Shown: piece after piece, positions 2,942-37,823 of the stretch
Layout of the letters: each line of letters opens with the position of its first letter
Numbering within the stretch: the first letter of the stretch is position 1
IMG/VR virus record: IMGVR_UViG_3300020457_000026
Location: 1 to 37,823 of that record
DNA: 37,823 bases
Direction: 5' to 3' (one strand)
DNA from: a virus
Translations under genes and position numbers: made by a program
The notes under the pieces: model-generated
What the model was told of the DNA's origin: nothing
What the model saw: only the letters and a program-made list of their open reading frames with translations
Database searches by the model: none

Positions 2942-4579
2942 TTGAAAAAATGGTTTTATGAGAGAAGTAGGTTTGGTACATTCAAATCTAATACTACATA
3001 TCACAAACTAATATCTATGTCCGAAACAGAGTTCGTTGAATGGGCACAATTACTTAGAAAAGAAGTTACTGAACAATGGGATGAGTTTGGAACGCCACCT
3101 ATGATTGGTAAGGATGAAACAAAGATAATAGAATCTTTTTCTAAATTAAAAGATAATCCTTGTAACTTTCTTGAAAAGGATTTGACTGGTGATGAAGAAT
3201 CACTTGGTATTATACAGAACTTCAATAAAGATGCAAGTTCTGTTAATCAGTTTTTTCCTACTATGTTGAAAACAAAGATATCTTCTGGTAAAAGTGCAGA
3301 TGGTGGATTAAGTATTTATGACCACTTTGCAGACCCTGATATGGAAGAGAAGTTTGTTAGGATTATGGCAAGAGCTGTAAAGAGAGATTCCATGTATAGT
3401 TGGAGTAGAAGTATTGTAGATAAGGTAGATGAGAATCCATTTTGGAATGGTCAAGGTGCTATTGAATTTATAAAAGATGTTTCTGAGGGTAAAGTATTTA
3501 TTGATAAGTATTCTGATTTAGATATATGGATTGCAAAAGTAAACACAAAAACAATTTCTAATTATGGAACTTTTAATCAAGAATATATTGGTCATGGTAA
3601 TTTATATCTTACAGCAGAACAAGTTCAAGAACTAAAAGATAATGGATATCTTAATGATACTCAAGTATCTAATATAGATAGAATAGAATCCGAGTTTACA
3701 TCAGAAGCAGGAACCACACAAAGTTATATTTATCAGATTCGTTGGTATGATAAAACAGATGGTATCTTTCCAAAGATATTACAAGTGTTTAGATTATCAT
3801 GTGGACAACCTGCTGTAAACTTTCCAGCACTAACTGCAAAGTATTTATATGAAACCTATACATCTCATGTAGAGGAACCAATTACAATTTATGATAGTAG
3901 TAGTGGTTGGGGTGGTAGGATAATTGGTGCTATGAGTATGAGGAAGAAAGCACACTATGTTGGTACAGACCCTAATCCAGATACAAGTGGTAGGTATCAG
4001 GCAGTTGCAGATTTTTATAATAACAATTGTGTGGATAATGAAAGTGAAACATTCCAAAAGTTTTTTGAGGTAGAAAAGAAAAGTAATACCTACGAAGTGT
4101 TTACAGATGGTAGTGAATTAATTGGGAACAATCCTGAGTTTCAGAAGTATAAGGGTAAATTAGATATGGTTTTTACATCCCCACCTTACTTCAATAGAGA
4201 ACAATATTCACAAGATGAGAATCAAAGTTTTAAAGCATATTCCGAGTATGATGATTGGAGAGATAATTTTTTAGAACCGACTTTAACAACGGCTTATAAT
4301 TATTTACGAGAGGATAGATATATCCTTTGGAACATTGCAGATATAAAAATTGGGAGTAGTACTTACTACCCATTAGAACAAGATAGTATTGATATCCTAA
4401 CTAAATTAGGGTGTGAATATAAAGGTAAACTTAAAATGTTGATGACACGGATGGTTGGGTTAGACCCAAGTAAGACTGGTATAAAGAATGCTGTACAACA
4501 CAATGGAAAAGCATACAAGTTCGAACCGATATTCGTGTTCTACAAAGGAGCACAAAATGAAATTCAGAAATTGGGATAA
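2942..4579 (+). CDS. DNA methyltransferase (SPPY type), 545 aa
   Basis: SAM-dependent base methyltransferase. The SAM-binding motif I is DSSSGWGGR at 318-326, followed by GTDPN. The catalytic motif IV is TSPPYF at 412-417, typical of amino (N4-C or N6-A) methylases; no PCQ motif of C5 methylases is seen. Motif I precedes motif IV. The ~300-residue N-terminal region is unrecognised and may hold target recognition. The start is TTG, chosen because AAGGAG (2931-2936) sits 5 bases upstream. No partner restriction enzyme is visible. It overlaps the next gene by 23 bases, opening the modification-like cassette. Target base and sequence unknown. Confidence 0.82.
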   Translation: MKKWFYERSRFGTFKSNTTYHKLISMSETEFVEWAQLLRKEVTEQWDEFGTPPMIGKDETKIIESFSKLKDNPCNFLEKDLTGDEESLGIIQNFNKDASSVNQFFPTMLKTKISSGKSADGGLSIYDHFADPDMEEKFVRIMARAVKRDSMYSWSRSIVDKVDENPFWNGQGAIEFIKDVSEGKVFIDKYSDLDIWIAKVNTKTISNYGTFNQEYIGHGNLYLTAEQVQELKDNGYLNDTQVSNIDRIESEFTSEAGTTQSYIYQIRWYDKTDGIFPKILQVFRLSCGQPAVNFPALTAKYLYETYTSHVEEPITIYDSSSGWGGRIIGAMSMRKKAHYVGTDPNPDTSGRYQAVADFYNNNCVDNESETFQKFFEVEKKSNTYEVFTDGSELIGNNPEFQKYKGKLDMVFTSPPYFNREQYSQDENQSFKAYSEYDDWRDNFLEPTLTTAYNYLREDRYILWNIADIKIGSSTYYPLEQDSIDILTKLGCEYKGKLKMLMTRMVGLDPSKTGIKNAVQHNGKAYKFEPIFVFYKGAQNEIQKLG

Positions 4580-5891
4580 GGAATATGATAAACCTTATCA
4601 TAATGGAAAACAATGGATGTATGATAAAACACCAATCTATGATAATATATTAGATTGTTTTTTAGAAACACAAAGACCAGAGGGTGATAAATCTACAAGA
4701 GAAAAATATGGTAACACGAGATTGAGAGACCCTTTTAGAAAAATAAACAAATATAAAATCCAACAATATCTTGGACACATGGAAAAAAATATGTATAAAG
4801 AAGTTGATTGGGTAGAAGATGATAATGGTAAAATTGTTGCTATTATTCATTATTACGATTTAAATAAAATGTCTACCAAAGAGAAAAAGGTAAAATCTTT
4901 TTGTGGACAAGAATATATTTTGGATAAAGAACGAGGTGATGTTTACATCAAAGAGATGGCATGTTATCCTGGTCATGAGGAATGGTTAGAAAAGTTAGTA
5001 GAAAAACATATTGCAAAACCAAAAGAATCAAACAAGTTCTTTGATACAGAAGAACCAATCACAATTGTAGAGATTGATAATCAGTTGAAAAGAAATAAAG
5101 ATATATTAAAAAATTTAGGATTTGAATGTATCGATAATATCGTAACTTCGTTTGCAGATGTTTATGGTATATGGGTTAAAGGTGGTGAGAATTTAGAACG
5201 ACCTGATAAGGCACAAGAGTTATCATTACAGAGATTAGATTGTGATACACAAGATACAAAAGAGTTGATGGAACAAATTCTAAAACTTAACATTGATGAT
5301 TTTGCTAATCACTATTCTAATTACAACAAAGGAAATACTTGGAAAGGTATGGTGGTTCGTGGTTATGGTGGATTAGTTGATTTCATTGTTAAACCTGCAG
5401 AGATGGTTAACTCTTGGAAAAAAGAAAACAAAGAGAAGATGGATTGGAAAGTAAAAGATACACCATTGAGAAAACAAGTACCTGCTGTAGAAAAGTTTGC
5501 AGATATACTTGGTGATTACGAACACGAGAGAATCAGAATCCTAATGTTAAAAGAGGGAGAGGGTGAACTTGAAAGACATACTGATAGACAAGATGTAGAG
5601 GCTGGTATTGGTGATGGTCAATGGGCAAGGTTACATTTTCCTTTACAAACAAATCCAAAGGTAGAATTCAAACAATGGAATGCTGATGGTACAAGTACCA
5701 AATGTAAAATGGGTGAGGGTGAACTATGGTATTTAGATATGAGAAAACCACACACTGCAGTTAACTTTGGTGAACAAGATAGATACCACTTAATTATAGA
5801 TGTTAAATCAGACCAACGATTAAGAGATTGGTTGGTAAGAAGTAGTGAGAAGTATCCATCTACAAAACAAGTTGATGATTATATAGAATGA
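4557..5891 (+). CDS. GNAT-like domain fused to Fe(II)/2-oxoglutarate dioxygenase (Asp/Asn beta-hydroxylase-like), 444 aa
   Basis: The C-terminal ~130 residues carry an aspartyl/asparaginyl hydroxylase-type jelly roll: HTD (H341, D343), RLHFPLQTNP, WYLDMRKPH (H399) and RYHLIIDV (R409 for 2-oxoglutarate). The iron triad H-x-D...H is therefore complete. Residues ~75-210 (GKIVAIIHYY, YIKEMACYPGHEEWLEKLV, NKDILKNLGFE, VYGIWVKG) look like a GNAT acyltransferase fold; this part is inferred. The start at 4557 has AAAGGAG just upstream and is preferred to an ATG 69 bases earlier. It lies between a DNA methylase and a YunG-like protein, so the substrate could be a DNA base, an amino-acid adduct or a protein. 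Confidence 0.75.
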   Translation: MKFRNWDKEYDKPYHNGKQWMYDKTPIYDNILDCFLETQRPEGDKSTREKYGNTRLRDPFRKINKYKIQQYLGHMEKNMYKEVDWVEDDNGKIVAIIHYYDLNKMSTKEKKVKSFCGQEYILDKERGDVYIKEMACYPGHEEWLEKLVEKHIAKPKESNKFFDTEEPITIVEIDNQLKRNKDILKNLGFECIDNIVTSFADVYGIWVKGGENLERPDKAQELSLQRLDCDTQDTKELMEQILKLNIDDFANHYSNYNKGNTWKGMVVRGYGGLVDFIVKPAEMVNSWKKENKEKMDWKVKDTPLRKQVPAVEKFADILGDYEHERIRILMLKEGEGELERHTDRQDVEAGIGDGQWARLHFPLQTNPKVEFKQWNADGTSTKCKMGEGELWYLDMRKPHTAVNFGEQDRYHLIIDVKSDQRLRDWLVRSSEKYPSTKQVDDYIE

Positions 5892-15575: not shown

Positions 15576-16064
15576 ATGCCATACACAATTAAAAGAGCTA
15601 GAAAAAAAGATTTCTATAAAAATGTTCAAGATGCAGATGAACAAAAACATTTGAAAAAAGTAGAAGAGGAAAGAAAGAGAGCACAGATATCTGGTTCAGC
15701 ACTTGATGCTACCGACCCACTAAGGGATGAAAGAGGATATTTGTTATCATATGAAGACCCTGAAAATGTTAGAAATGATGGAACACCAGTTTCACTTGAA
15801 GAAGATTATCAATATGTAAGATTATCAGTTACACAAAAATCATCTAATACAAGTTTGTTTGAAAAATACTTAGGAGAGAAATCTGAATTTACAGAATTTA
15901 CTGATGAAGAAACTATAGAAGAATCAGAAACACCTACAGCAGAAGAATTACAAAGATTGAGAGATACACTAAAAAATGAGATTGATGCTCAAGTAACACT
16001 AAACCAAGATTTAGAAACAGAGATTGGAAATTTACAAGCAAGAATAGTGGAGTTAAATGACTAA
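15576..16064 (+). CDS. Coiled-coil baseplate-region protein, 162 aa
   Basis: Highly charged. A basic start (TIKRARKKDFYKNV) is followed by a Lys/Glu-rich helix and a middle acidic stretch (FTDEETIEESETPTAEE). A C-terminal coiled coil follows (LRDTLKNEIDAQVTLNQDLE, EIGNLQARIVELN). Its stop overlaps the start of the 1629-residue structural gene, so the two are probably made together; the coiled coil could trimerise it or act as its chaperone. No family recognised. Confidence 0.68.
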   Translation: MPYTIKRARKKDFYKNVQDADEQKHLKKVEEERKRAQISGSALDATDPLRDERGYLLSYEDPENVRNDGTPVSLEEDYQYVRLSVTQKSSNTSLFEKYLGEKSEFTEFTDEETIEESETPTAEELQRLRDTLKNEIDAQVTLNQDLETEIGNLQARIVELND

Positions 16065-19000
16065 TGTTAACATACGGATTAACACAAAAAGATAAAGAAC
16101 AATTAGAAATCAAAAAAAATCTGTATACAGGTTTTGGAAGAGATGGTCGTGATTATATTCATTTGTATGTTTATCAATCTGATACGCCTGATGTTGATGA
16201 TAATGATGTATTGATAAAAGATGAAATCTTTCCATTAGATGTTGTTGAGTTCCAAGATGATAAAACAATGGATTTAGATATTGGTACTCATCTTCGTGCC
16301 ATGGGTTTTGAGAGTGGAACACATAAAGTAAAATATCTTTTTCTAAGAAGATTGGCTGGTAAAGATGAAGTTGTATTTGTAAATGAAGATGGTGAGATAC
16401 ATACCAATAGAGTTCAAACAAAAGTTATCAACGGAAAAACAAGATACTATGCTACCAAGAAATTCGGTAAAAGTCAATCAAGACAACAATTAAAAGAAAT
16501 ATTTCCTAAAGATTTAAAATATGTAATAAAGAAAATATCAGGTGATAGAACTGAATTAGAAATTGATTGTCAAGAAATAAATAATAATATTTACAAGAAA
16601 AATTTTAGAGAAATAAACAAGATAATAAATTATACACCAACAACATTAGTAAATGATTCTAATACAGGTACTATCAGATTTGATTTAACAGACCCTACTA
16701 TACTGATTGCTAATTTAGATAAGAATGATAGAGGGTTTACTGATTCTATGGTGGGTGGTGAAATAACTATAAAAGGTGTTTATTCAATCACGAGTGACCA
16801 ATTGGTTATACCAGAGATTCCACCAATAGATTTATCTGAACCATTATTCACACCACAAGAATTTGAACCTACTAATGTTATACTTGAGAGGGTAGTATCA
16901 AATGACCCACCATCTATTCCTGAATTGGTAGATGAAAAGATACAAGATTATGAAGATGGAAACTATGATAATGATAGATATGGTAGTGTTTGTTTTCATG
17001 GAGATACACGAGTTAAATTAAGTAACAATCGTTCTGTACCAATCAAAATGATTAGACCAGGTATGAAAGTTAAAACCGAACAAGGTTATGCAAAAGTTCT
17101 TAAAGTAGTTAAAGATGGAAGACCTGATGGTGAAAGATTAGTAAAGTTTGGTAGGTTGATTACTACAGATAACCATCCGATAAAATATCGTGGTCAATGG
17201 TACATGGCAAAAGAAGTTGGAAAATTATTTCAATCAAAATCATTAGAGGTATGGAATCTTATATTAGATAAACACCACACAATATATGCTAACAATGTTG
17301 TTAGTGCTACACTTGGTAAGTGGGATAGTATAGAACAATTCTTATATCAGAAAAATCATCGTATCAATATGTTAAGAGCACAAGATGAAGATTATGGTGG
17401 AGATGGTGGAGTCGGTGGAGGCGGAGGTGGTTCTTCAAGTGGTGAGGGTGATAGTCCAGGTACTACCATTCCTACAAGAGAATCAATACCAAATTCAAAT
17501 GCCTATCAATCTGATAATGAAATTATAGTAGATGATATTGTACCAAGTGTTACTCGTGAGTTCTTAGAATCTAATTTTGCGGTATCAAGACAATTACCAA
17601 ATCCTGTTCCACCACCACCACCAGCTACAATCATACCTATAGATTATAAGGCTAGAATCGTTGAGGTATTAGATTTTAACAGAGTGAGAGTGGATATAAG
17701 TTATGAACAAGGTGCTAATAATACAGACCATAGTGGTGAGGATACTTCGAAAGATATATATCAAGAGTTCATGGTTCAGTTTACAAAATCACAAATAAAA
17801 AGATTGAATTCTTATTTAGTTATAAATGGTACTTATAATCTAATCACTAACATAAAAGATAATCCAAATGGTACTTCTCGTTTTATAAAAGTGTATTCAC
17901 CAATTATTGATGAGATTGAGGAAATGGATTTATGTTACTTTGTAGATGAGAAAATGGAACCATACAGAGATATCGTTGAATTAGTACCATTTGTAGAAGA
18001 GGAAGAAGAAGTATTATTTTTGAGGTTACCAGATTTTAATTCTGTTAACAATCCAATCAATATGAGGTCTACTAACTTTAATAATTTTGACCAATTGGTT
18101 GGAAGTGATACTACCGTATCACAAGATATACAAAACAAAGTACTATCACAAAGTTTATTAGATGTACAAGTTAATGTAGATTACACAAAAAGAACTGATG
18201 CTATTGATGAGTTCGAACCAGATTTTGGTTTTGGTAATTTTGTAACCTTTGGTAGTGCTGAAAAGAGAATAAATAATTTTAAAAAGAAATTAGAGTTAAT
18301 ACAAACTTATACTTCTTCAAGTTTAGCATTAAATAATGTTACTGGTTCGGCGAGAACAAGAACTGAGTTTGATAATAAAAAGAGAAGAGTAATAAATTCA
18401 TTTGACCCTTATGAACATTTTTTATATTTTGAAAGTGCATCAGCGGCATCAAGTTCAATCGGTGAATTCTATGATGCAAGTTGGCCAAAAGATAATTCTA
18501 CCGAACCATATATTGTATCACATACAAGTAGTTCAGTAGCTACAACATGGTACAATACTTGGACGGGATATGCTAAAAGTTATGATAGATTGAATCGTGA
18601 AAGATTGGTAAATAACTTACCACTTCATGTTACTGCTGATACAGAGAATAACTTCTTTTTAGATTTTATGGATATGATTGGTCAACAATTTGATGAGATA
18701 TTTGTTTACACAAGACACTTTACTGATATCAATGAAAGAACAAGTAAATTAAGTGAGGGTATTTCTAAAGATATCGTAAGAGAAGTTGCAAAATCTGTAG
18801 GGATAGATGTAGTGAATGGTAATGATTTATTAATTTTACCACAATACCTTTTAGGTAAAGATTCTGATGGTACAGATTTATTTGAAACACCACAAGAAAA
18901 AGTAACAGAAGAAATATGGAAAAGAATACTTGCTAATACACCATTCTTCTTAAAAACAAAAGGAACGATAAGAGCTCTAAAAGGATTGATGAATTGTTAT

Positions 19001-20953
19001 GGTATACCAAGTTCAATACTTAGAGTTCGTGAGTATGGTGGACCCGATAAAGGAACAAGAGTTAGTTTCGAAATAAAAAGAAAGTTTACTTATGCATTAG
19101 ATTTTAAATCAAATGAGTATTTACGATTGCCTTGGAAAGATGATTCTAATTCAATGAAACCACAAACCGTTGAGTTTAGATTTAGAAGTCCTATATCAAA
19201 AGACCAAGTGTTAGTACACAAAGGTAGTGGTAATGATAGTTGGGCAATACAATTACAAGATAACGGACAAACTGATAATTTTGGTTTCTTACAATTTGCA
19301 CTTAGTTCTTCTATAGGTGTTACACGAATTTCATCATCACTACAACCATTTTATAATGATGATATGTGGAGTGTGATGTTAACAAGAAAATCTTCAAGTG
19401 GAGCAGATTTAACAGCAGATACTCATACACAAAAAATTAAATATGAATTAACTACAAAACAATATGATGCCACACGAGAAGTAATTTTATATCAAACAAG
19501 TCAAAGTGTAGTATTGGATGGTAGTACATCAGCCAATGCTTATAACAATGGTTTTGTTACAGATGGTGATGTTATATTAGGTGGTAGTGGTAGTTCAGGA
19601 TACTTTACAGATTTTAGTGGTTCGATGATGGAGTTCAGATTATGGAGTGAACCATTATCACAAAGTTCATTTGATAATCATGTAAGAGCACCAAAATCTT
19701 ATAATGGAAACACTACATCATCATACTATGATAATTTACTTTTTAGGGCTGAATTAAATAATAATGTTAATTTACAAACATTCCCAAGTGCTTCTCAAGA
19801 TACATCAAATGCTAAGTTGTATCACACGAGTGCAAGTGCTCATGATTTTACAGGTAACAATTTTAGAAGTATTGTAGATAAAGAACAATTGAAAGTTCCT
19901 AATCTTGGACCTCAAAGAAGAAATGCTACAAAGATTAGAATCGAAGATACAACATTGAGTGGCCCACTTTCATCTAATATTAGAAGAGAGAAATCATCAC
20001 AAGATTTTGCACCTGTAGATAGTAATAAGTTGGGAGTTTATTTTTCACCAACGGATATTGTGAATGAAGATATCATTTATAGTATAGCTAACTTTGATTT
20101 TGATAATCAAGTTGGTGACCCAAGAGACCAATACAAATTATCTTACAGAGGATTAACATACTCACAAAATCAATATTGGAAAAAGTATGATAGAACAAAT
20201 AACTTTTGGGATTATATGAGAATCATAAATTTTTATGATAATAGTTTATGGACACAATTAAGAAACTTAACACCAGCAAGAGCAAATACTACATTGGGTT
20301 TATTAATAGAACCAAACATTTTAGAAAGAAGTAAAGAAATAGTTGGACAACCACCTGAGTTTACAAATGAGTATTTTGAAAATGCTGGACACTTTGATTT
20401 TGGTTTACAAATTACAGATAGAGTAAGTGGTTCTTCTGTACCATTTACATTTAGTGGTGAGTTTAAAATGTTCGGACAAGGTATCACTAATACAAAAGAT
20501 GGTACAATAAATTTACATAATACTGAGAGTGGTTCACTTGGTAACTTAGGTTTACCATCATTGGTACACTTAAATGAAATAAATCCAAGAAGTGAATTCA
20601 GTACAACATATGCTACTGCAAGTATCACATTTGGTGGAACCAATACAGAATTTACCGAGACGGTACAACCCTTTATCAGTAGTTCAAGAATATCTGAACA
20701 CAATGAGATAAAGAGGATGATTTATACAAGTTCATTAGATGCTCTAACTGATACACCATTTAGTTCATCATTCGAACCTGCTGAGTTTCAGAGTATGGCT
20801 TACGAATCAAACTTGTTTAGATTATTTTATAAAGGACAATTATTAACAAAAGATAATACAATAGATGGAAAAGACCCTGTTGAGATAACTATAACTTCAC
20901 CTACTAAACTTGTTACACAAGAACCAGGTGAATCAAAACTTAAAGTGGAATAA
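16064..20953 (+). CDS. Giant baseplate/tail structural protein with an embedded Hint (intein-like) domain, 1629 aa
   Basis: Largest protein here, placed where T4-like phages carry gp7-type wedge or fibre proteins. Residues 1-309 form a strand-rich N-terminal part. A Hint domain occupies about 310-418: Cys at 310 (CFHGDTRV), IRPGMKV, TTDNHP with T368/H371, and VWNLILDKHHTIYANN. The end reads NNVVSATLG, without the His-Asn plus nucleophile needed for splicing. A Gly-rich linker (~445-465) and a proline run (~515) follow. Residues ~1030-1210 look like a concanavalin/LamG-type sandwich (PQTVEFRFRSPIS...MMEFRLWSEPLS). Autocleavage at C310 is possible but unproven. The ATG overlaps the upstream stop. 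Confidence 0.85.
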   Translation: MLTYGLTQKDKEQLEIKKNLYTGFGRDGRDYIHLYVYQSDTPDVDDNDVLIKDEIFPLDVVEFQDDKTMDLDIGTHLRAMGFESGTHKVKYLFLRRLAGKDEVVFVNEDGEIHTNRVQTKVINGKTRYYATKKFGKSQSRQQLKEIFPKDLKYVIKKISGDRTELEIDCQEINNNIYKKNFREINKIINYTPTTLVNDSNTGTIRFDLTDPTILIANLDKNDRGFTDSMVGGEITIKGVYSITSDQLVIPEIPPIDLSEPLFTPQEFEPTNVILERVVSNDPPSIPELVDEKIQDYEDGNYDNDRYGSVCFHGDTRVKLSNNRSVPIKMIRPGMKVKTEQGYAKVLKVVKDGRPDGERLVKFGRLITTDNHPIKYRGQWYMAKEVGKLFQSKSLEVWNLILDKHHTIYANNVVSATLGKWDSIEQFLYQKNHRINMLRAQDEDYGGDGGVGGGGGGSSSGEGDSPGTTIPTRESIPNSNAYQSDNEIIVDDIVPSVTREFLESNFAVSRQLPNPVPPPPPATIIPIDYKARIVEVLDFNRVRVDISYEQGANNTDHSGEDTSKDIYQEFMVQFTKSQIKRLNSYLVINGTYNLITNIKDNPNGTSRFIKVYSPIIDEIEEMDLCYFVDEKMEPYRDIVELVPFVEEEEEVLFLRLPDFNSVNNPINMRSTNFNNFDQLVGSDTTVSQDIQNKVLSQSLLDVQVNVDYTKRTDAIDEFEPDFGFGNFVTFGSAEKRINNFKKKLELIQTYTSSSLALNNVTGSARTRTEFDNKKRRVINSFDPYEHFLYFESASAASSSIGEFYDASWPKDNSTEPYIVSHTSSSVATTWYNTWTGYAKSYDRLNRERLVNNLPLHVTADTENNFFLDFMDMIGQQFDEIFVYTRHFTDINERTSKLSEGISKDIVREVAKSVGIDVVNGNDLLILPQYLLGKDSDGTDLFETPQEKVTEEIWKRILANTPFFLKTKGTIRALKGLMNCYGIPSSILRVREYGGPDKGTRVSFEIKRKFTYALDFKSNEYLRLPWKDDSNSMKPQTVEFRFRSPISKDQVLVHKGSGNDSWAIQLQDNGQTDNFGFLQFALSSSIGVTRISSSLQPFYNDDMWSVMLTRKSSSGADLTADTHTQKIKYELTTKQYDATREVILYQTSQSVVLDGSTSANAYNNGFVTDGDVILGGSGSSGYFTDFSGSMMEFRLWSEPLSQSSFDNHVRAPKSYNGNTTSSYYDNLLFRAELNNNVNLQTFPSASQDTSNAKLYHTSASAHDFTGNNFRSIVDKEQLKVPNLGPQRRNATKIRIEDTTLSGPLSSNIRREKSSQDFAPVDSNKLGVYFSPTDIVNEDIIYSIANFDFDNQVGDPRDQYKLSYRGLTYSQNQYWKKYDRTNNFWDYMRIINFYDNSLWTQLRNLTPARANTTLGLLIEPNILERSKEIVGQPPEFTNEYFENAGHFDFGLQITDRVSGSSVPFTFSGEFKMFGQGITNTKDGTINLHNTESGSLGNLGLPSLVHLNEINPRSEFSTTYATASITFGGTNTEFTETVQPFISSSRISEHNEIKRMIYTSSLDALTDTPFSSSFEPAEFQSMAYESNLFRLFYKGQLLTKDNTIDGKDPVEITITSPTKLVTQEPGESKLKVE

Positions 20954-24013: not shown

Positions 24014-26893
24014 ATGAAGAGGATTTTAAATTGGCTCTTTTTATTGGGCTTTGTCGGAATGGCCACCGCCCAAGAACCAATTATTAGAGTTAAACAAATA
24101 GGGAATTGGTCTACACCAGCGATGTGGTGGAAAGGCTCGGTTACACAAGATTTAGATGATTTCTTGGCACAAGATGTATCTAAACCAGCTGAAGATAATA
24201 ATAACTTCGATATTTGGAGAGATAAAGTATTGGAGATGGAAGTTACTTTGGATGATAAAGGTGCAGATGTTACGACATTCAGAATAGATATTGCATTTGA
24301 TAATGATTTAATTACTTGGGTAGAATCAGGTGAAACTTCAGTTAACGCTTGGAGTCAAGGTGAATCACGAGTAATCAAAGGTTCACATATTTCAGGTTGG
24401 ACTGAGGGTGATGAAAGTTCTAATGCAGATTATTCTTTCGAAGTAGTTCATTATACAAATGTAGGATATCAAGATTCATTGGCGGCCACAGGTAATTTGA
24501 TTGAAGAATCTATATCAGATGATAGATATGATTGGTTAAGAATAACAATGGTATCACATGGAGTTGATGGTAATTCAGATGGAACACCAGATAAAACATT
24601 TGGTGGTGGTAATGGAGTACAAAAACAATTATTAAAATTTAAATTTAAAATAAATGATGTGGTGGATAACTTTGCACCTAAATCATTCAGAGTTGCAACT
24701 CAGTATGATGGAGCAGAGGGATACTACACATATGTTTCAGATGAATATCTTTTAGATTACAAAGTTTACATAGATGGTAATTGGGGTGATACATATGCAG
24801 GAGAAAGAACTTACAATGGTGCTGCTCGTGGTGATATCACACTACATCCTAAACTTGTAGATGTTGAGGGATACTTTAGATATATTGGTGAATGGAATGA
24901 TACCGATAAAGATGGAACAAAAGATACTAATGAAGAATACTCAAGAAACAAATATGCTATGTGGAAAGTTATCTTCGAGTTAGATGAAAGTAATCCAGAT
25001 GAGTTTACGAATTGGTTGAATCTTCGTGATATTAATTATCCATCAAGTTTAACTGATGAGGGAACTACTGATGATGTTATGGGTACTTATGATGAGTATG
25101 GAACAAATGCATTAGGGTATCAACATATGAGATACTATGAACAAAATGCAGGTTCAACATCAGACCAGAAAATTCAAAACGATGGATTCAATGGAGTATC
25201 TTTTTGGTATTGGACATATACAGATGATAAAGGATACTTTAATATTTCTTTACCACGAAACAATAGATATCGTGTATCTTTTTGGCCACCAGAAGCAGAT
25301 GATGTGGTTGGTGACCATACTACTTATTTATTAGATAGAGATGCAATCACAAATATCAATGATGCTATTGCAGGATTTAATTTCCAATCAAATAAATTTG
25401 ATAATGTAACTGATATTGAAATAGAATCACCAAGTGGTTATTTAATTGGTGATGTTGATGGAGATGATAGATATCAATTAAATGATGCATATTTTTTATG
25501 GGCATACACAAGTGGTGTGTTTGATACAGATTATACTCATACTAATGGAGAAACATATCAATCATGGGCAAGTATAGATAATTTAAAAACAGGTAATAAT
25601 AATGAAACACTTAATTATTATCAGACTGTAAATGGAAGTGCAAGATTACAAAAAAGAGAATTCAGTATCTTTGTTGATGATGATTTAGCACAAGAAACTG
25701 CAGTACTAACTAAAGACCAAGGTGGTATTATTAGATTTAATCCATTGATGGATGATGTTCAGACAGGATTAGATACACTAAGTATTAAAATAGGTGCAGG
25801 TAGTTCTACATTTGGAAATGATGTAAATCCTGATTACTTATTTGATACCGATGATAATGATAAACAAGTTGATATTATTGGAACATCAAACGATTCTGAT
25901 ATTGGATATTATTTTACAGGTGATGTAAACCTAACAGGTACAAAAGTTGATAACGATGGAACTGCAATTACACCAGTTGTAGATGGAACAACATATTATC
26001 GTTGGGGTAGTGGAGACCCACCTGATACATGGGCAAGAATAGGTGGTGAACCTGGTAATGGTAATAGAAGTATGTCAGCAATGAAATCATTGATGACAGA
26101 CCATGATGTAACATTATCATTTCCTGCTGATTCAACTGTAAGAGTACAGAGTGGTGAGATTATCGAAGTACCATTAAATATTACACCATCAGAGGGTATT
26201 AATATTGCTGGGTTTGAATTTGAAGTAGAGTTTAATGTAAATGAATTAACCTTTATTGATATGAAAACTGGTAACTTGCCAGGGCCTTGGATGACCTATG
26301 TAAATGTAGGTGAAGTTGAAGCAGGATGGCAAAGAGTTAGATTTGGTGGATTTGATTACTCACCAGGTAATGCTCCTACTAACTATTGGGTTACTCAACA
26401 AATGAATGCATTAAAGTTAATGTTCAGAGCGGAGTTTCCTGATGAGGAGTGGAGTGAGGCTCCTATTAGATTCGTTGGTAAATATGCAGCGGGTAATCCA
26501 AATGGTGATGATTTAAGAATGGAGAGAGAAAGTGGTAAGGTAATGGTATGGAATAAGTATTGGGCATTCGGTGGTGGAGAACCAGGTGAAGAGGATATAA
26601 CTTATAACTATCCAAATCCATTTAAAGAAAATACTAAATTTCAATTCTTCTTAGATGAAATGGAACAAGTAAAAATTTACATATTAAATTCCAATGGACA
26701 ATACATTGGAACATTATTAGATGAAGTAGTTGATGCTGGAATACACACATTTGATTTCACTAACCAACCAAGTGTTTGGTTACCTGAAGTGAGTGTGTAT
26801 GAGAATCATAAAACTTTAGAACCAGGTGTTTACATATTTGTTTTACAAACTGATGATAGAATCAAAGCAAATAAATTTACGGTGGTTAAATAA
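24014..26893 (+). CDS. Secreted protein with T9SS type A sorting domain, cohesin-like and EF-hand (dockerin-like) segments, 959 aa
   Basis: A clear signal peptide (MKRILNWLFLLGFVGMATAQ) should send it through Sec. Residues 480-491 (GDVDGDDRYQLND) form a dockerin-like calcium loop, with D480/D482/D484 and D491. About 696-845 resemble a cohesin-type sandwich (VPLNITPSEGINIAGFEFEV...). The last 94 residues start at YPNPF (866-870) and read as a T9SS C-terminal sorting domain (VKIYILNSNGQYIG...LEPGVYIFVLQ...KFTVVK). In FCB bacteria such domains carry cargo across the outer membrane to the surface. This is cellular-type cargo in a phage genome, next to a PorV/PorQ-like gene. It may coat the infected cell or alter phage adsorption; both are inference. 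Confidence 0.82.
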   Translation: MKRILNWLFLLGFVGMATAQEPIIRVKQIGNWSTPAMWWKGSVTQDLDDFLAQDVSKPAEDNNNFDIWRDKVLEMEVTLDDKGADVTTFRIDIAFDNDLITWVESGETSVNAWSQGESRVIKGSHISGWTEGDESSNADYSFEVVHYTNVGYQDSLAATGNLIEESISDDRYDWLRITMVSHGVDGNSDGTPDKTFGGGNGVQKQLLKFKFKINDVVDNFAPKSFRVATQYDGAEGYYTYVSDEYLLDYKVYIDGNWGDTYAGERTYNGAARGDITLHPKLVDVEGYFRYIGEWNDTDKDGTKDTNEEYSRNKYAMWKVIFELDESNPDEFTNWLNLRDINYPSSLTDEGTTDDVMGTYDEYGTNALGYQHMRYYEQNAGSTSDQKIQNDGFNGVSFWYWTYTDDKGYFNISLPRNNRYRVSFWPPEADDVVGDHTTYLLDRDAITNINDAIAGFNFQSNKFDNVTDIEIESPSGYLIGDVDGDDRYQLNDAYFLWAYTSGVFDTDYTHTNGETYQSWASIDNLKTGNNNETLNYYQTVNGSARLQKREFSIFVDDDLAQETAVLTKDQGGIIRFNPLMDDVQTGLDTLSIKIGAGSSTFGNDVNPDYLFDTDDNDKQVDIIGTSNDSDIGYYFTGDVNLTGTKVDNDGTAITPVVDGTTYYRWGSGDPPDTWARIGGEPGNGNRSMSAMKSLMTDHDVTLSFPADSTVRVQSGEIIEVPLNITPSEGINIAGFEFEVEFNVNELTFIDMKTGNLPGPWMTYVNVGEVEAGWQRVRFGGFDYSPGNAPTNYWVTQQMNALKLMFRAEFPDEEWSEAPIRFVGKYAAGNPNGDDLRMERESGKVMVWNKYWAFGGGEPGEEDITYNYPNPFKENTKFQFFLDEMEQVKIYILNSNGQYIGTLLDEVVDAGIHTFDFTNQPSVWLPEVSVYENHKTLEPGVYIFVLQTDDRIKANKFTVVK

Positions 26894-33447: not shown

Positions 33448-33783
33448 ATGAAAACTCGTTCAGCAAAGAACAAAGGAAAAAGATTACAAAATTCAGTACG
33501 AGATATTCTTCTCGAAACATTCAAAGAACATTTAGAACAAGATGATATCAAATCAACAACAATGGGTGAGAGTGGTGAAGATATTCAGTTATCACCAGCA
33601 GCTCGTAAACTTATACCATATGCCTTTGAATGTAAGAACCAAGAAAAATTAAATATATGGAGTTCATTAGAACAGGCAGAAGAAAATGCACAGAAAGGTA
33701 AACCTATCTTGATATTTAAAAGAAACAGAAGTAAAACATATGCCGTTTTACAATTAGAGGATTTTATTGAATTAATTAAATGA
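33448..33783 (+). CDS. PD-(D/E)XK nuclease-like protein, 111 aa
   Basis: Core motif: ESGEDI (E44/D45), then AFECKNQEKLN (E61-C-K63) and a downstream Gln in SSLEQAEENA. This matches the PD-(D/E)XK active site with the E-x-K arrangement. Size and basic N-terminus (KTRSAKNKGKRLQNSVRD) suit a small phage resolvase or structure-specific nuclease. It is coupled by overlap to the primase gene, so it probably acts in replication or recombination. A Holliday-junction versus other branch specificity is not readable. Confidence 0.65.
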   Translation: MKTRSAKNKGKRLQNSVRDILLETFKEHLEQDDIKSTTMGESGEDIQLSPAARKLIPYAFECKNQEKLNIWSSLEQAEENAQKGKPILIFKRNRSKTYAVLQLEDFIELIK

Positions 33784-34703
33784 GTCAGTTAGTTATAAAC
33801 ATATTAGATAAGGCCTTAAAATCAAAAGGTCAATCTCTCAAGAAGAGTAATGAGTATATGTGGTGGAGTCCTTTTATATCACATCACAAACCAAAACTAC
33901 AAGTAAATATTCAGACTGGTAAGTGGCATTGTTGGGTAAGTAATCAAGGTGGACATAATCACTTTCAGTTATTAAAAGCTATTGGTGCTCCAAGAGAATT
34001 ATTTAAAGAGATGAGTGAAGCCGTGGGTTCCACTTACTACTCTTCAGAAAAGAAAGATGAAAAACAAGTTATAATTAATCTTCCAAAGGAAGCCAAACCA
34101 TTGTGGAATGGTGGTGAATCACTTCAGAAACTTCATGCATTAAGATTTGTAATGGAGAGAGGATTATCAATGGAAGATATAATAAGATATAATTTACACT
34201 ATTGTTTAAGTGGTATATATCAAAATAGAATTATTATACCAAGTTATGATAGTAATGGTCAATTAAATTACTTTGTAGGTCGAGATTTCTACAAGAGTAA
34301 CATGAAGTACAAAAATCCCCCTATACCAAAAGATATTATCGGATTTGATATGTATGTTAATTGGAATGAACCGATTATTCTTTGTGAGGGTGTATTTGAT
34401 GCAATGGCTATTAAAAATAACTCGATTCCTTTGTTTGGTAAAACTATATTACCTAAACTTTATAAGAAGATAGTCGAGAAAAAAGTTTCCCATATAACCA
34501 TTTGTTTGGATGATGATGCTTTCAAAGATTCTTTGGAAATTGCATCTAACTTTATGGATAATGGGATACAAGTTAACTTTGTTAAACTCAAAGGAAAAGA
34601 CCCAAGTGATTTGGGTTATAGGAATATGATAACACATCTAAATACTTCAACCGAAGTAAACTTTAAAGAACTAATGAAAATGAGAATTTATGGTAACAAG
34701 TAA
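33780..34703 (+). CDS. DNA primase (T4 gp61-like, TOPRIM), 307 aa
   Basis: Makes RNA primers at the replication fork. TOPRIM motifs are visible: ILCEGVFDA with catalytic E203, and the acidic run CLDDDAF (D244-D246). The N-terminal region (WWSPFISHHKPKLQVN, KWHCWVSNQGGHN) aligns with the primase zinc finger but keeps only C51; the other ligands appear lost or replaced by His (H35, H36, H50, H59). The middle (ALRFVMERGLSMEDIIRYNLHYC and IIIPSYDSNG) is as in gp61/DnaG. ATGA overlap joins it to the upstream nuclease gene. Confidence 0.82.
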   Translation: MSQLVINILDKALKSKGQSLKKSNEYMWWSPFISHHKPKLQVNIQTGKWHCWVSNQGGHNHFQLLKAIGAPRELFKEMSEAVGSTYYSSEKKDEKQVIINLPKEAKPLWNGGESLQKLHALRFVMERGLSMEDIIRYNLHYCLSGIYQNRIIIPSYDSNGQLNYFVGRDFYKSNMKYKNPPIPKDIIGFDMYVNWNEPIILCEGVFDAMAIKNNSIPLFGKTILPKLYKKIVEKKVSHITICLDDDAFKDSLEIASNFMDNGIQVNFVKLKGKDPSDLGYRNMITHLNTSTEVNFKELMKMRIYGNK

Positions 34704-37700
34704 AATAAAAGTTCCTTTTAGGAAACTAAAACACATACATCACATAAGTGATATTCAAATCAGAAACTTAAAACGACACAAAGAATATGAACAAGTATTC
34801 GAGGGGTTATACAAGGAAGTAAGAAAGAATCCTAATAACGCTATCTCGTATATTGGTGGAGATATTGCTCATAGTAAAACCGAGATGTCACCTGAGTTAG
34901 TAGACCAGTTATCAAGGTTGTTTAAGAACTTAGCTGATATCTGTCCATTAGTTATTATTGCAGGTAATCATGATTGTAATCTAAATAACTTGAATCGTAT
35001 GGATGTATTAACACCAATTGTAGAAAATCTAAATCATCCTAATTTACATTATCTAAAACGAACAGGTGTATATACTTGTGGTGATACTGATTTAGTAGTA
35101 TGGGATGTTTGGGATAAAGAATCAGATTATATCAAAGCAAAAGATATCGAGGGTGATAGGAAGAAAGTTGTATTGTTTCATGGAACAGTCGATAGAAGTG
35201 AAACTGATTTAGGATTCAAGTTACCATCTAAAGTAAAGATGAGTATGTTCAAAGGATATGATTTAGGATTACTTGGTGATATTCATAAAAGACAATTCCT
35301 AAACAAAGAAGAAACTATTGCTTATTGTGGTTCATTGGTTCAACAAAATCATGGTGAGGATATTGGTAAAGGTTATTTACTATGGGATATGGAAACTCTT
35401 AAATCAGAATACATTGAGATTCCAAATGAGTATGGTTATTATACAATCAATATTGATAATGGTAAGTTACCTGAACTACCAGATTTTCCCAAGAAACCAA
35501 GAGTTCGTGTACGAGTAAGTAATACAAAACCATCACAATTAAAAAAGTTGATGGCAGAACTACAGAAGAAAGCAAAGATTCAAGAAAGTGTTATTACAAG
35601 AGTTGATGGTTTAAGTACAGATAAAATTAGAGATAAGAAGATTAATATTGGGGATGTTAATAATCCTGATTATCAATATGATTTAATTAGTGAGTATTTA
35701 AAAAATAATTACATTGTAGATGATGAAACAATGATTAAGATAAAGGATATCATCAAAGAATTAAATAGTGTAATACCAGAAGCTGATATCAAACGAAATA
35801 TTAGTTGGAAGTTAAAGAAGTTTGAATTTAGTAATCTATTCAGTTATGGTGAGGATAATGTAGTTGATTTCACAAAACTAAATGGTATGATTGGATTGTT
35901 TGCCCCTAATGCTAGTGGTAAATCTGCTTTATTGGATGCCTTATGTTTTAATTTATTCGATATTAGTTCTCGTGCTTATAAGGCTGATAATATTATCAAC
36001 AAAGCAAAAAACAATTTGTATTGTAAAGTAAACTTTGAAATAGATGGTATGGATTATTTTATCGAGAAAAAAGGTAAAAAGAATCTTAGAACAGGCCATG
36101 TAAAAGTAGATATAGATTTTTGGATGGTAGATGAAACAGGTGAAGAAATATCATTAAATGGTGACCAAAGAAGAACTACACAAAATAATATTAAAAAGGT
36201 TATTGGTAACTACGAAGATTTCATATTAACATCAATGAGTTCACAAAATGATTCTACTGTGTTTATAGATAAAACACAAAAAGAAAGAAAAGAGTTACTA
36301 TCTCAGTTTATGGGATTAAAGATATTCGATACTTTATATCAACAAGCTGCTGAAGATATCAGAGAAGTAAATACACTTTTAAATGATTTCAAGAAAGCTG
36401 ATTATGATTCAGAGTTAGCACAGATAACAAATGATTTGATTTTACTAAAGGGTAAAGAAAAAGAATTTAAAAAAGATGAAAAAGATTTAAAGAAAGAGTA
36501 TAAGAAAATAACTACTGATATTCAAGAACAAACTAAACGATTAAAACCTGTAGATGATAGTTTGAAGAGTATAGATGTATTGGAAGAAGAACATACTAAA
36601 TTAACACAATTATCAGATAATGTCAAGGAAAAACTTTCAGAGTATGAGATAGAACAATATGATTTTGAAAAGGCTACACAAGAAATAGAAAATAAAATTC
36701 TTATCTACAAACAAGATGGTGTAGAAGAAAATTATTACAAGTTAGAAAAGTTAGAAGAAGAAAGAGATTTATTTCAAATAGAAATCGATAAACTTAAAAT
36801 TGAGGTTCGTAATAAATTAGATAAAATTGAGAAACTTGGTGATGTAACTCATGATGAGAATTGTGAACATTGTATGAGTAATCCATTTACATTAGATGCT
36901 ATTGAAACTAAGAAGAACCTTGAAAAAGATAAAACACTTGCACAAGAATATGTACAAAAGAAACAAACGATGGATGATGAAATCCAAAAGATGTTCAAGG
37001 TTCGTGCATTCAAAAAAGATTTAGATGAGTTAGAAAGTAATTTAAATGAAAAACAAAGATATCAAGATAACATTACATCTAATATAAACATCACAAAAGA
37101 AAAACAAAAGAACATTATGACTCAGTTCAATCTTATTACAAGTGAGATGGAAAGAGCAAAATCACAAGAACAGAATGTAGTATTTAATGAACAAATATTA
37201 CAAGAGATTGATAACTTAGAAAATCATCAAACTGATTTAGATTATCAATTAGGTGTAGTTGGTAAAAAAGTAACTACACTACATGGTGAAATTCAAGTAC
37301 TTAGAAATAAAGAAAATCAAATCAATGAGAATATTGATAAGGTTGCAGAACTTGAAGATTCACATCAGGCATATCAGTATTTATTAGAGGCCATCAAACG
37401 AGATGGTGTACCATATGACCTTATCAGTAAATCACTTCCTACTGTAGAGGGTGCTGTAAATGATATCTTAGCACAGATAGTTGATTTTAGTATTATCTTC
37501 AATATGGATGGAAAACAAATCGATACACATATTGTTTATGATGATGATAGAGTATGGCCTCTTGAATTAAGTAGTGGTATGGAACGATTCATATCATCAC
37601 TTGCTATTCGTGTAGGATTGATGAATGTATCTAACTTACCGAGAAGTAACTTCCTTGCTATTGACGAGGGTTGGGGAACAATGGATTCGGATAATCTGAA

Positions 37701-37823
37701 CTCAGTTGCACAATTATTCCAATATCTGAAAACAGAATTTCAGTTCTCATTAGTTGTTTCACATATAGAATCAATGAGAGATTTTGTAGATACCTTATTG
37801 GAAATCAAAAAGGTAGGAGGAAG
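34690..37823 (+). CDS. Mre11 (gp47)-Rad50 (gp46) fusion, SbcD-SbcC in one polypeptide (3' partial, at least 1044 aa)
   Basis: A single frame runs from ATG 34690 to the right edge with no stop. Residues ~14-205 are the metallophosphoesterase: HISDIQ, GGDIAH (D58), AGNHD (N93-H94-D95), FHGT (H164), LLGDIHK (H199). Residues ~377-1044 are a Rad50/SbcC ATPase: Walker A APNASGKS (to 412), coiled coil, zinc hook C725-E-H-C728, second coiled coil, signature LSSGME (960-965), Walker B LAIDEG (D992/E993) and H-loop VVSHIE (H1025). In T4 these are separate genes 47 and 46, which process DNA ends for recombination-dependent replication. The first metal motif reads D-I-Q where D-x-H is usual. The C-terminus is cut by the window. 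It overlaps the primase by 14 bases. Confidence 0.9.
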   Translation, partial: MVTSKIKVPFRKLKHIHHISDIQIRNLKRHKEYEQVFEGLYKEVRKNPNNAISYIGGDIAHSKTEMSPELVDQLSRLFKNLADICPLVIIAGNHDCNLNNLNRMDVLTPIVENLNHPNLHYLKRTGVYTCGDTDLVVWDVWDKESDYIKAKDIEGDRKKVVLFHGTVDRSETDLGFKLPSKVKMSMFKGYDLGLLGDIHKRQFLNKEETIAYCGSLVQQNHGEDIGKGYLLWDMETLKSEYIEIPNEYGYYTINIDNGKLPELPDFPKKPRVRVRVSNTKPSQLKKLMAELQKKAKIQESVITRVDGLSTDKIRDKKINIGDVNNPDYQYDLISEYLKNNYIVDDETMIKIKDIIKELNSVIPEADIKRNISWKLKKFEFSNLFSYGEDNVVDFTKLNGMIGLFAPNASGKSALLDALCFNLFDISSRAYKADNIINKAKNNLYCKVNFEIDGMDYFIEKKGKKNLRTGHVKVDIDFWMVDETGEEISLNGDQRRTTQNNIKKVIGNYEDFILTSMSSQNDSTVFIDKTQKERKELLSQFMGLKIFDTLYQQAAEDIREVNTLLNDFKKADYDSELAQITNDLILLKGKEKEFKKDEKDLKKEYKKITTDIQEQTKRLKPVDDSLKSIDVLEEEHTKLTQLSDNVKEKLSEYEIEQYDFEKATQEIENKILIYKQDGVEENYYKLEKLEEERDLFQIEIDKLKIEVRNKLDKIEKLGDVTHDENCEHCMSNPFTLDAIETKKNLEKDKTLAQEYVQKKQTMDDEIQKMFKVRAFKKDLDELESNLNEKQRYQDNITSNINITKEKQKNIMTQFNLITSEMERAKSQEQNVVFNEQILQEIDNLENHQTDLDYQLGVVGKKVTTLHGEIQVLRNKENQINENIDKVAELEDSHQAYQYLLEAIKRDGVPYDLISKSLPTVEGAVNDILAQIVDFSIIFNMDGKQIDTHIVYDDDRVWPLELSSGMERFISSLAIRVGLMNVSNLPRSNFLAIDEGWGTMDSDNLNSVAQLFQYLKTEFQFSLVVSHIESMRDFVDTLLEIKKVGG

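Follow-up and report, generated by a model that had tools for sequence, protein, structure and literature searches.

A fused Mre11-Rad50 gene in a phage genome fragment, a member of a conserved and widespread fusion class

The window analysed here is an entire virus record (IMG/VR IMGVR_UViG_3300020457_000026, 37,823 bases), and at its 3' end lies a plus-strand gene (34690..37821) that encodes 1044 aa within the window and runs off the end of the record. In the ORF analysis no stop interrupted the 1044 codons from the ATG at 34690 to the window end, a frame whose random occurrence at 32% GC would be about 4e-42, and the missing C-terminus was estimated from the longer ORFs of relatives at about 9 residues and the stop. 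A calcineurin-like nuclease comes first and a Rad50 ABC ATPase second in this one ORF, with Pfam matches above cut-off for both (Metallophos, residues 15–199; AAA_23, residues 381–618), and PHROGs identified the C-terminal part as an SbcC-like subunit. The observation made in a sequence-only reading of this DNA, that Mre11 and Rad50 are fused in one phage polypeptide with a continuous frame from the phosphoesterase motifs to those of Rad50, is confirmed by these results. ORF analysis and annotation placed a DnaG-type primase gene (33780..34703, plus strand), itself preceded by a RusA-like resolvase gene, upstream of the fusion, the start of which it overlaps by 14 nt. Elsewhere in the window, a 1629-aa protein of the structural region (16064–20953) carries a Vint/Hint domain at residues 309–418 (E 7e-20), which is possibly an intein-like or self-processing element; a 959-aa protein (24014–26893) has a cohesin-like domain and a weak match to a Por secretion C-terminal sorting domain, which hints weakly at a host among the Bacteroidota; and a 467-aa protein with an aspartyl/asparaginyl beta-hydroxylase domain (4488–5891, E 2e-10) overlaps a DNA methylase ORF.

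The nuclease half consists of an Mre11/SbcD-like metallophosphoesterase catalytic domain at residues 14–235 (34729..35394), placed by the Metallophos match and by matches to SbcD structures, a capping domain at about residues 238–304 (35401..35601) and a Rad50-binding helix-loop-helix (HLH) with helices at residues 326–340 and 345–361 (35665..35772), all on the plus strand. The last two were placed with a structural model and with the help of T. maritima Mre11 (3qg5_C), to which the sequence profile of the nuclease half aligned through the HLH as far as residue 361. Modelled residues 11–304 matched the SbcD structures 7dog (Z 24.1) and 4m0v (Z 23.2). The fold of a metallophosphoesterase, the capping domain and five motif blocks in order, as in Mre11/SbcD, are thus all present, the motifs being identified on the same strand by alignment: motif I, D21-I-Q23 (34750..34758); motif II, G57-D58-I-A-H61 (34858..34872); motif III, GNHD at residues 92–95 (34963..34974); motif IV, His164 (35179..35181); and motif V, G-D197-I-H199 (35275..35286). 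The phosphoesterase motifs claimed earlier were therefore found as blocks, but motif I is D-I-Q and not D-x-H, with a metal-ligand His replaced by Gln, and motif V is G-D-I-H and not G-H-x-H. Residue 23 and D197 are the counterparts of His10 and His206 of Pyrococcus Mre11. Since DxQ and GDxH depart from the canonical Mre11 ligand set (DxH, GD, GNH, H, GHxH), and Mimivirus R555 also has GDxH, the protein was assigned to the fusion family rather than to canonical Mre11.

Across 51 aligned sequences, D21, D58, H61, N93, H94, H164, D197 and H199 were invariant and motif V read GDIH throughout, while residue 23 was His in 36 of them and, as in the window protein, Gln in the other 15. Motif V was also GDIH in every fused protein examined except that of Sphingomonas phage PAU (GHIH). 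Gln at motif I recurred in Tenacibaculum phages pT24 and PTm1, PAU and Chryseobacterium phage MA9V-1; because their sister LR756501 lacks it, the change from His probably arose twice. GDxH was found in T5 and a T5-like Vibrio phage as well, both with separate genes, so that this motif V trait is not tied to fusion. The Gln of motif I in the subclade of the window and the GDIH of motif V are the less expected features of this nuclease.

With two ligand positions changed (His to Gln in motif I, His to Asp in motif V), the predicted nuclease activity could differ or be reduced. At the extreme, the fusion would be real and its Mre11 half a degenerate, non-cleaving scaffold, a reading which the occurrence of DxQ in 15/51 and of GDIH in 51/51 sequences favours and which we nonetheless consider unlikely, as the remaining ligand positions are invariant, the residue brought in by each change is again a potential metal ligand, and dN/dS in the catalytic domain is among the lowest in the protein. 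The Asp of motif V also speaks against a dead nuclease, being shared with the T5-type phages above and with R555 (PMC3175470). Pairwise substitution counts gave dN/dS values of about 0.03–0.19 for the nuclease and ATPase domains, both of which are under purifying selection.

Between the end of the HLH (residue 361) and the start of the Rad50 head (residue 372), the model places a linker of about 10 residues (362–371; 35773..35802, plus strand). A comparison of codons among relatives showed neither a stop nor a break in the frame there, and no internal start that is conserved. In the pairs tested the dN/dS of the linker (0.03–0.57) was noisier than that of the domains, with the frame kept and no gaps. 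A separate Rad50 made from an internal start was considered and rejected: no conserved start with a ribosome-binding site was found near the junction, and the ATG found at residue 383 in 47/51 sequences, where the window protein has Leu, would if used delete the first ATPase strand.

The Rad50 half, likewise on the plus strand, begins with the N-terminal ATPase lobe of Rad50/SbcC at residues 372–541 (35803..36312, from AAA_23 and comparison of the model with SbcC), with Walker A at 35905–35925 (PNASGKS, residues 406–412). In the model an ascending coiled-coil arm (residues 544–716; 36319..36837) and a descending arm (residues 732–902; 36883..37395) flank a zinc hook, CEHC, identified by alignment at residues 725–728 (36862..36873). 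Alignment and model place the C-terminal lobe at 37408..37821, with the ABC signature at 37570–37584 (SSGME, residues 961–965), Walker B at 37651–37668 (FLAIDE, residues 988–993) and the H-loop at 37762–37764 (His1025). The signature, Walker B, H-loop and zinc hook reported from the sequence are therefore all located in the fused chain, which has the full set of Rad50/SbcC elements (Walker A and B, an ABC signature in the variant form SGME, the H-loop, and coiled coils with a CxxC hook). Invariance across the 51 sequences extended to H1025, to hook residues C725 and C728 and to those Walker and signature residues that were checked. The AlphaFold2 model, built from these 51 sequences (the window and related loci), reached a mean pLDDT of 80 and a pTM of 0.44, with a poorly modelled loop at residues 306–318 between the capping domain and the HLH; its ATPase head matched E. 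coli SbcC (7yzo_D) with Z 30.1 and an rmsd of 3.1 over 343 residues. Given this pTM for the whole model, we only infer the relative placement of the domains, including the docking of the HLH in cis. The Rad50 half could alternatively be an SMC-type defence or counter-defence module of the Lamassu type and not a replication/recombination enzyme, as a PADLOC match to LmuB at residues 373–1038 (E 4e-25) might suggest; this is very improbable, since the SbcC proteins of control phages (T4, Grass, Twort, Moorella, Vibrio) matched LmuB at E values from 2e-21 down to 2e-30, and since the chain has an Mre11-like nuclease and is encoded within a primase/resolvase cluster. With controls scoring alike, the LmuB match shows nothing specific over what SbcC proteins of ordinary phages give.

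The same fusion was widespread among relatives. The first 29 retrieved were mostly contiguous across the full length at 50–94% identity, 80 loci came from a profile scan, almost all of them spanning practically the entire query at 40–91% identity, and 106 ORFs of more than 1000 aa (95 of them distinct) carried the same fusion, none split at the junction. The exceptions comprised contig ends, a truncation, an insertion, two MAG fragments and two loci with different start placement, and no stop, restart or frame break between the domains was found in any relative, these included. The possibility that a sequencing or assembly error merged two genes which are separate in the real phage, for which Listeria phage LMTA-57 offers a precedent, has next to no probability in view of the fused arrangement in 95 distinct relatives from independent assemblies and in several named phages, the purifying selection on the domains and the unbroken frame at the junction. 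The search among relatives proposed in the sequence-only reading thus returned the same fusion many times over, and the conserved stop and start that would have pointed to an error did not appear in any of them. In LMTA-57 (KJ591605.1, 59521–62550) a 1009-aa fusion is annotated as a recombination exonuclease, most close Listeria phages having two genes; its DNA is one base shorter than this two-gene form, and this fusion is probably a sequencing error. In the truncated locus (L015, 3436) the fusion is cut short at a position equivalent to residue 989, with loss of Walker B and the H-loop through mutation or assembly error. In a 484-kb phage (LR756508.1, 5613–6676) about 1.06 kb interrupts the fused gene just past GDIHKRQ, inside the nuclease domain, and carries a 305-aa ORF with a TnsA-like endonuclease N-terminal domain; Rfam gave no group I intron in this insert at E values up to 1, and the insert is possibly a mobile endonuclease or an unrecognised intron.

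Named phages with the fusion were Microcystis phage Mel-JY01, Tenacibaculum phages pT24, PTm1 and PTm5, Chryseobacterium phages MA9V-1/2 and Sphingomonas phage PAU. Mel-JY01 has a single Metallophos and a single AAA_23 match in the whole phage, both inside the fusion; as far as these domain matches show, the fusion replaces separate Mre11 and Rad50 genes in this phage. In 11 large IMG/VR contigs the sole AAA_23 match was the fusion, some of them having other metallophosphoesterases. A phylogenetic tree was generated from 22 fused and 12 separate-gene proteins, leaving out the cap, HLH, linker and coiled coil; it had E. coli as the sole cellular representative, giant-virus and cellular fusions lying outside its scope, and contained several long branches. 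All sampled fusions fell on one side of a branch with support 100/99, and trees of the nuclease alone and the ATPase alone on a smaller set concurred (94/91 and 98/96). The ABC signature was GM[E/Q] in all fused proteins examined and in 0/12 of the separate-gene proteins. On the simplest reading of these sequences, the sampled phages trace back to one fusion event. The fusion itself is genuine and old, and aquatic phages carry it widely. On plasmids, the search found nothing that matched over 80% of the query. Matches in bacterial and archaeal MAGs were on short contigs, three with a primase upstream as in phages, and probably represent viral contigs in the bins. An 11-kb contig (L116) in an uncultured Nitrosopelagicus MAG encodes a fused protein 43% identical to that of the window and is probably a phage contig binned with a marine archaeon, a possible host.

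A primase homologue was present within 1.5 kb upstream of the fusion in 111/114 loci, its end lying most commonly no more than about 30 nt from where the fusion begins. In Bacillus phage Grass and Listeria phage LP-124, sbcD and sbcC are distinct genes flanked by those for helicase and primase, an arrangement which makes it plausible by analogy that the fusion derived from an adjacent sbcD/sbcC pair.

The sequence-only reading had expected the fusion to fix a 1:1 stoichiometry and to change the architecture of the complex. Canonical Mre11-Rad50 complexes are 2:2, hence already 1:1 in subunit ratio with separate genes, so that the first point is no novelty. The window protein retains the capping and HLH regions, and its linker lies within the 9–12 residues calculated to bridge the Mre11 C-terminus and the Rad50 N-terminus in the T. 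maritima complex (PMC3175470), a length sufficient for normal geometry; with the 1:1 ratio, this implies no new architecture. That the two subunits are separate genes in T4 and in bacterial SbcCD was borne out for T4, T5 and E. coli. The fusion in a phage is genuine and conserved but not unprecedented, Mre11/Rad50 fusion proteins having been described in 2011 by Yoshida, Claverie and Ogata in Mimivirus (R555), plasmids, bacteria, eukaryotes, Bacillus phage 0305phi8-36 and marine metagenomes (PMC3175470). In that study marine R555-like scaffolds had phage primases alongside, and the fusion was confirmed at the time on only a few long environmental sequences (PMC3175470). The window protein is a member of this class, a good example and not a new discovery.

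The window protein shares with R555 and the other 2011 fusions an N-terminal Mre11 and C-terminal Rad50, the HLH, a short linker, Asp for His206 and GDxxH, and differs in length (about 1053 aa vs 1351) and in having Gln and not His at motif I; the marine fusions of 2011 were on short GOS scaffolds, whereas those found here are on long phage contigs. The nearest predicted viral structures (Foldseek/BFVD) were those of long DNA repair exonucleases, similar in length to the window protein, from giant viruses including Tupanvirus and Catovirus, the top five being 20–25% identical. The Mel-JY01 protein (WWT39521.1), annotated merely as an AAA-domain protein, is a full-length fusion with 38% identity over 99% and a primase gene just upstream, but has DVH at motif I. 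The fusions of pT24, PTm1, PTm5, MA9V-1/2, PAU and a 735-kb uncultured phage have the same domain order and GM[E/Q] signature as the window protein but are longer (1200–1330 aa) and form their own subclade. T4 gp47/gp46, T5 D12/D13 and the SbcD/SbcC pairs of Herelleviridae and E. coli are the same two enzymes in domain content and presumed pathway, differing in their separate genes and in a signature without GM[E/Q]; of these, T5 shares GDxH.

Taken together, the gene very probably encodes a single-chain phage version of the Mre11-Rad50 (SbcD-SbcC, gp47-gp46) DNA-end-processing enzyme, with normal 2:2 assembly and a role in recombination and replication. Two fused chains would pair through their Mre11 domains and ATP-bound Rad50 heads, each HLH docking in cis on the coiled coil, and ATP hydrolysis would then expose DNA ends to the nuclease. 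The enzyme would be co-expressed with the primase as part of a replication gene cluster and may generate the recombinogenic ends on which break repair and recombination-dependent replication draw. This replication role is suggested by synteny and homology: T4 gp46/gp47 act in recombination-dependent replication (summarised in PMC3175470), and SbcCD has been ranked among the core recombination apparatus of jumbo phages (PMC7824862).

The long contigs and named phages support the suggestion made in 2011 that many aquatic R555-like fusions belong to phages (PMC3175470), and they supply a large set of natural proteins in which a two-subunit complex is made as one chain and in which the motif I Gln, motif V Asp and SGM signature are sites of natural variation for probing the metal site and the ATPase signature. 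More speculatively, and at a rather low probability, the viral fusions might constitute a single lineage of old date, distinct in its catalytic make-up and perhaps shared by descent between phages and giant eukaryotic viruses. If so, in view of the Gln and Asp that replace two His ligands and of the Met after SG, the metal use, ATP gating or substrate choice of the single-chain enzyme could differ from those of all Mre11-Rad50 complexes studied.
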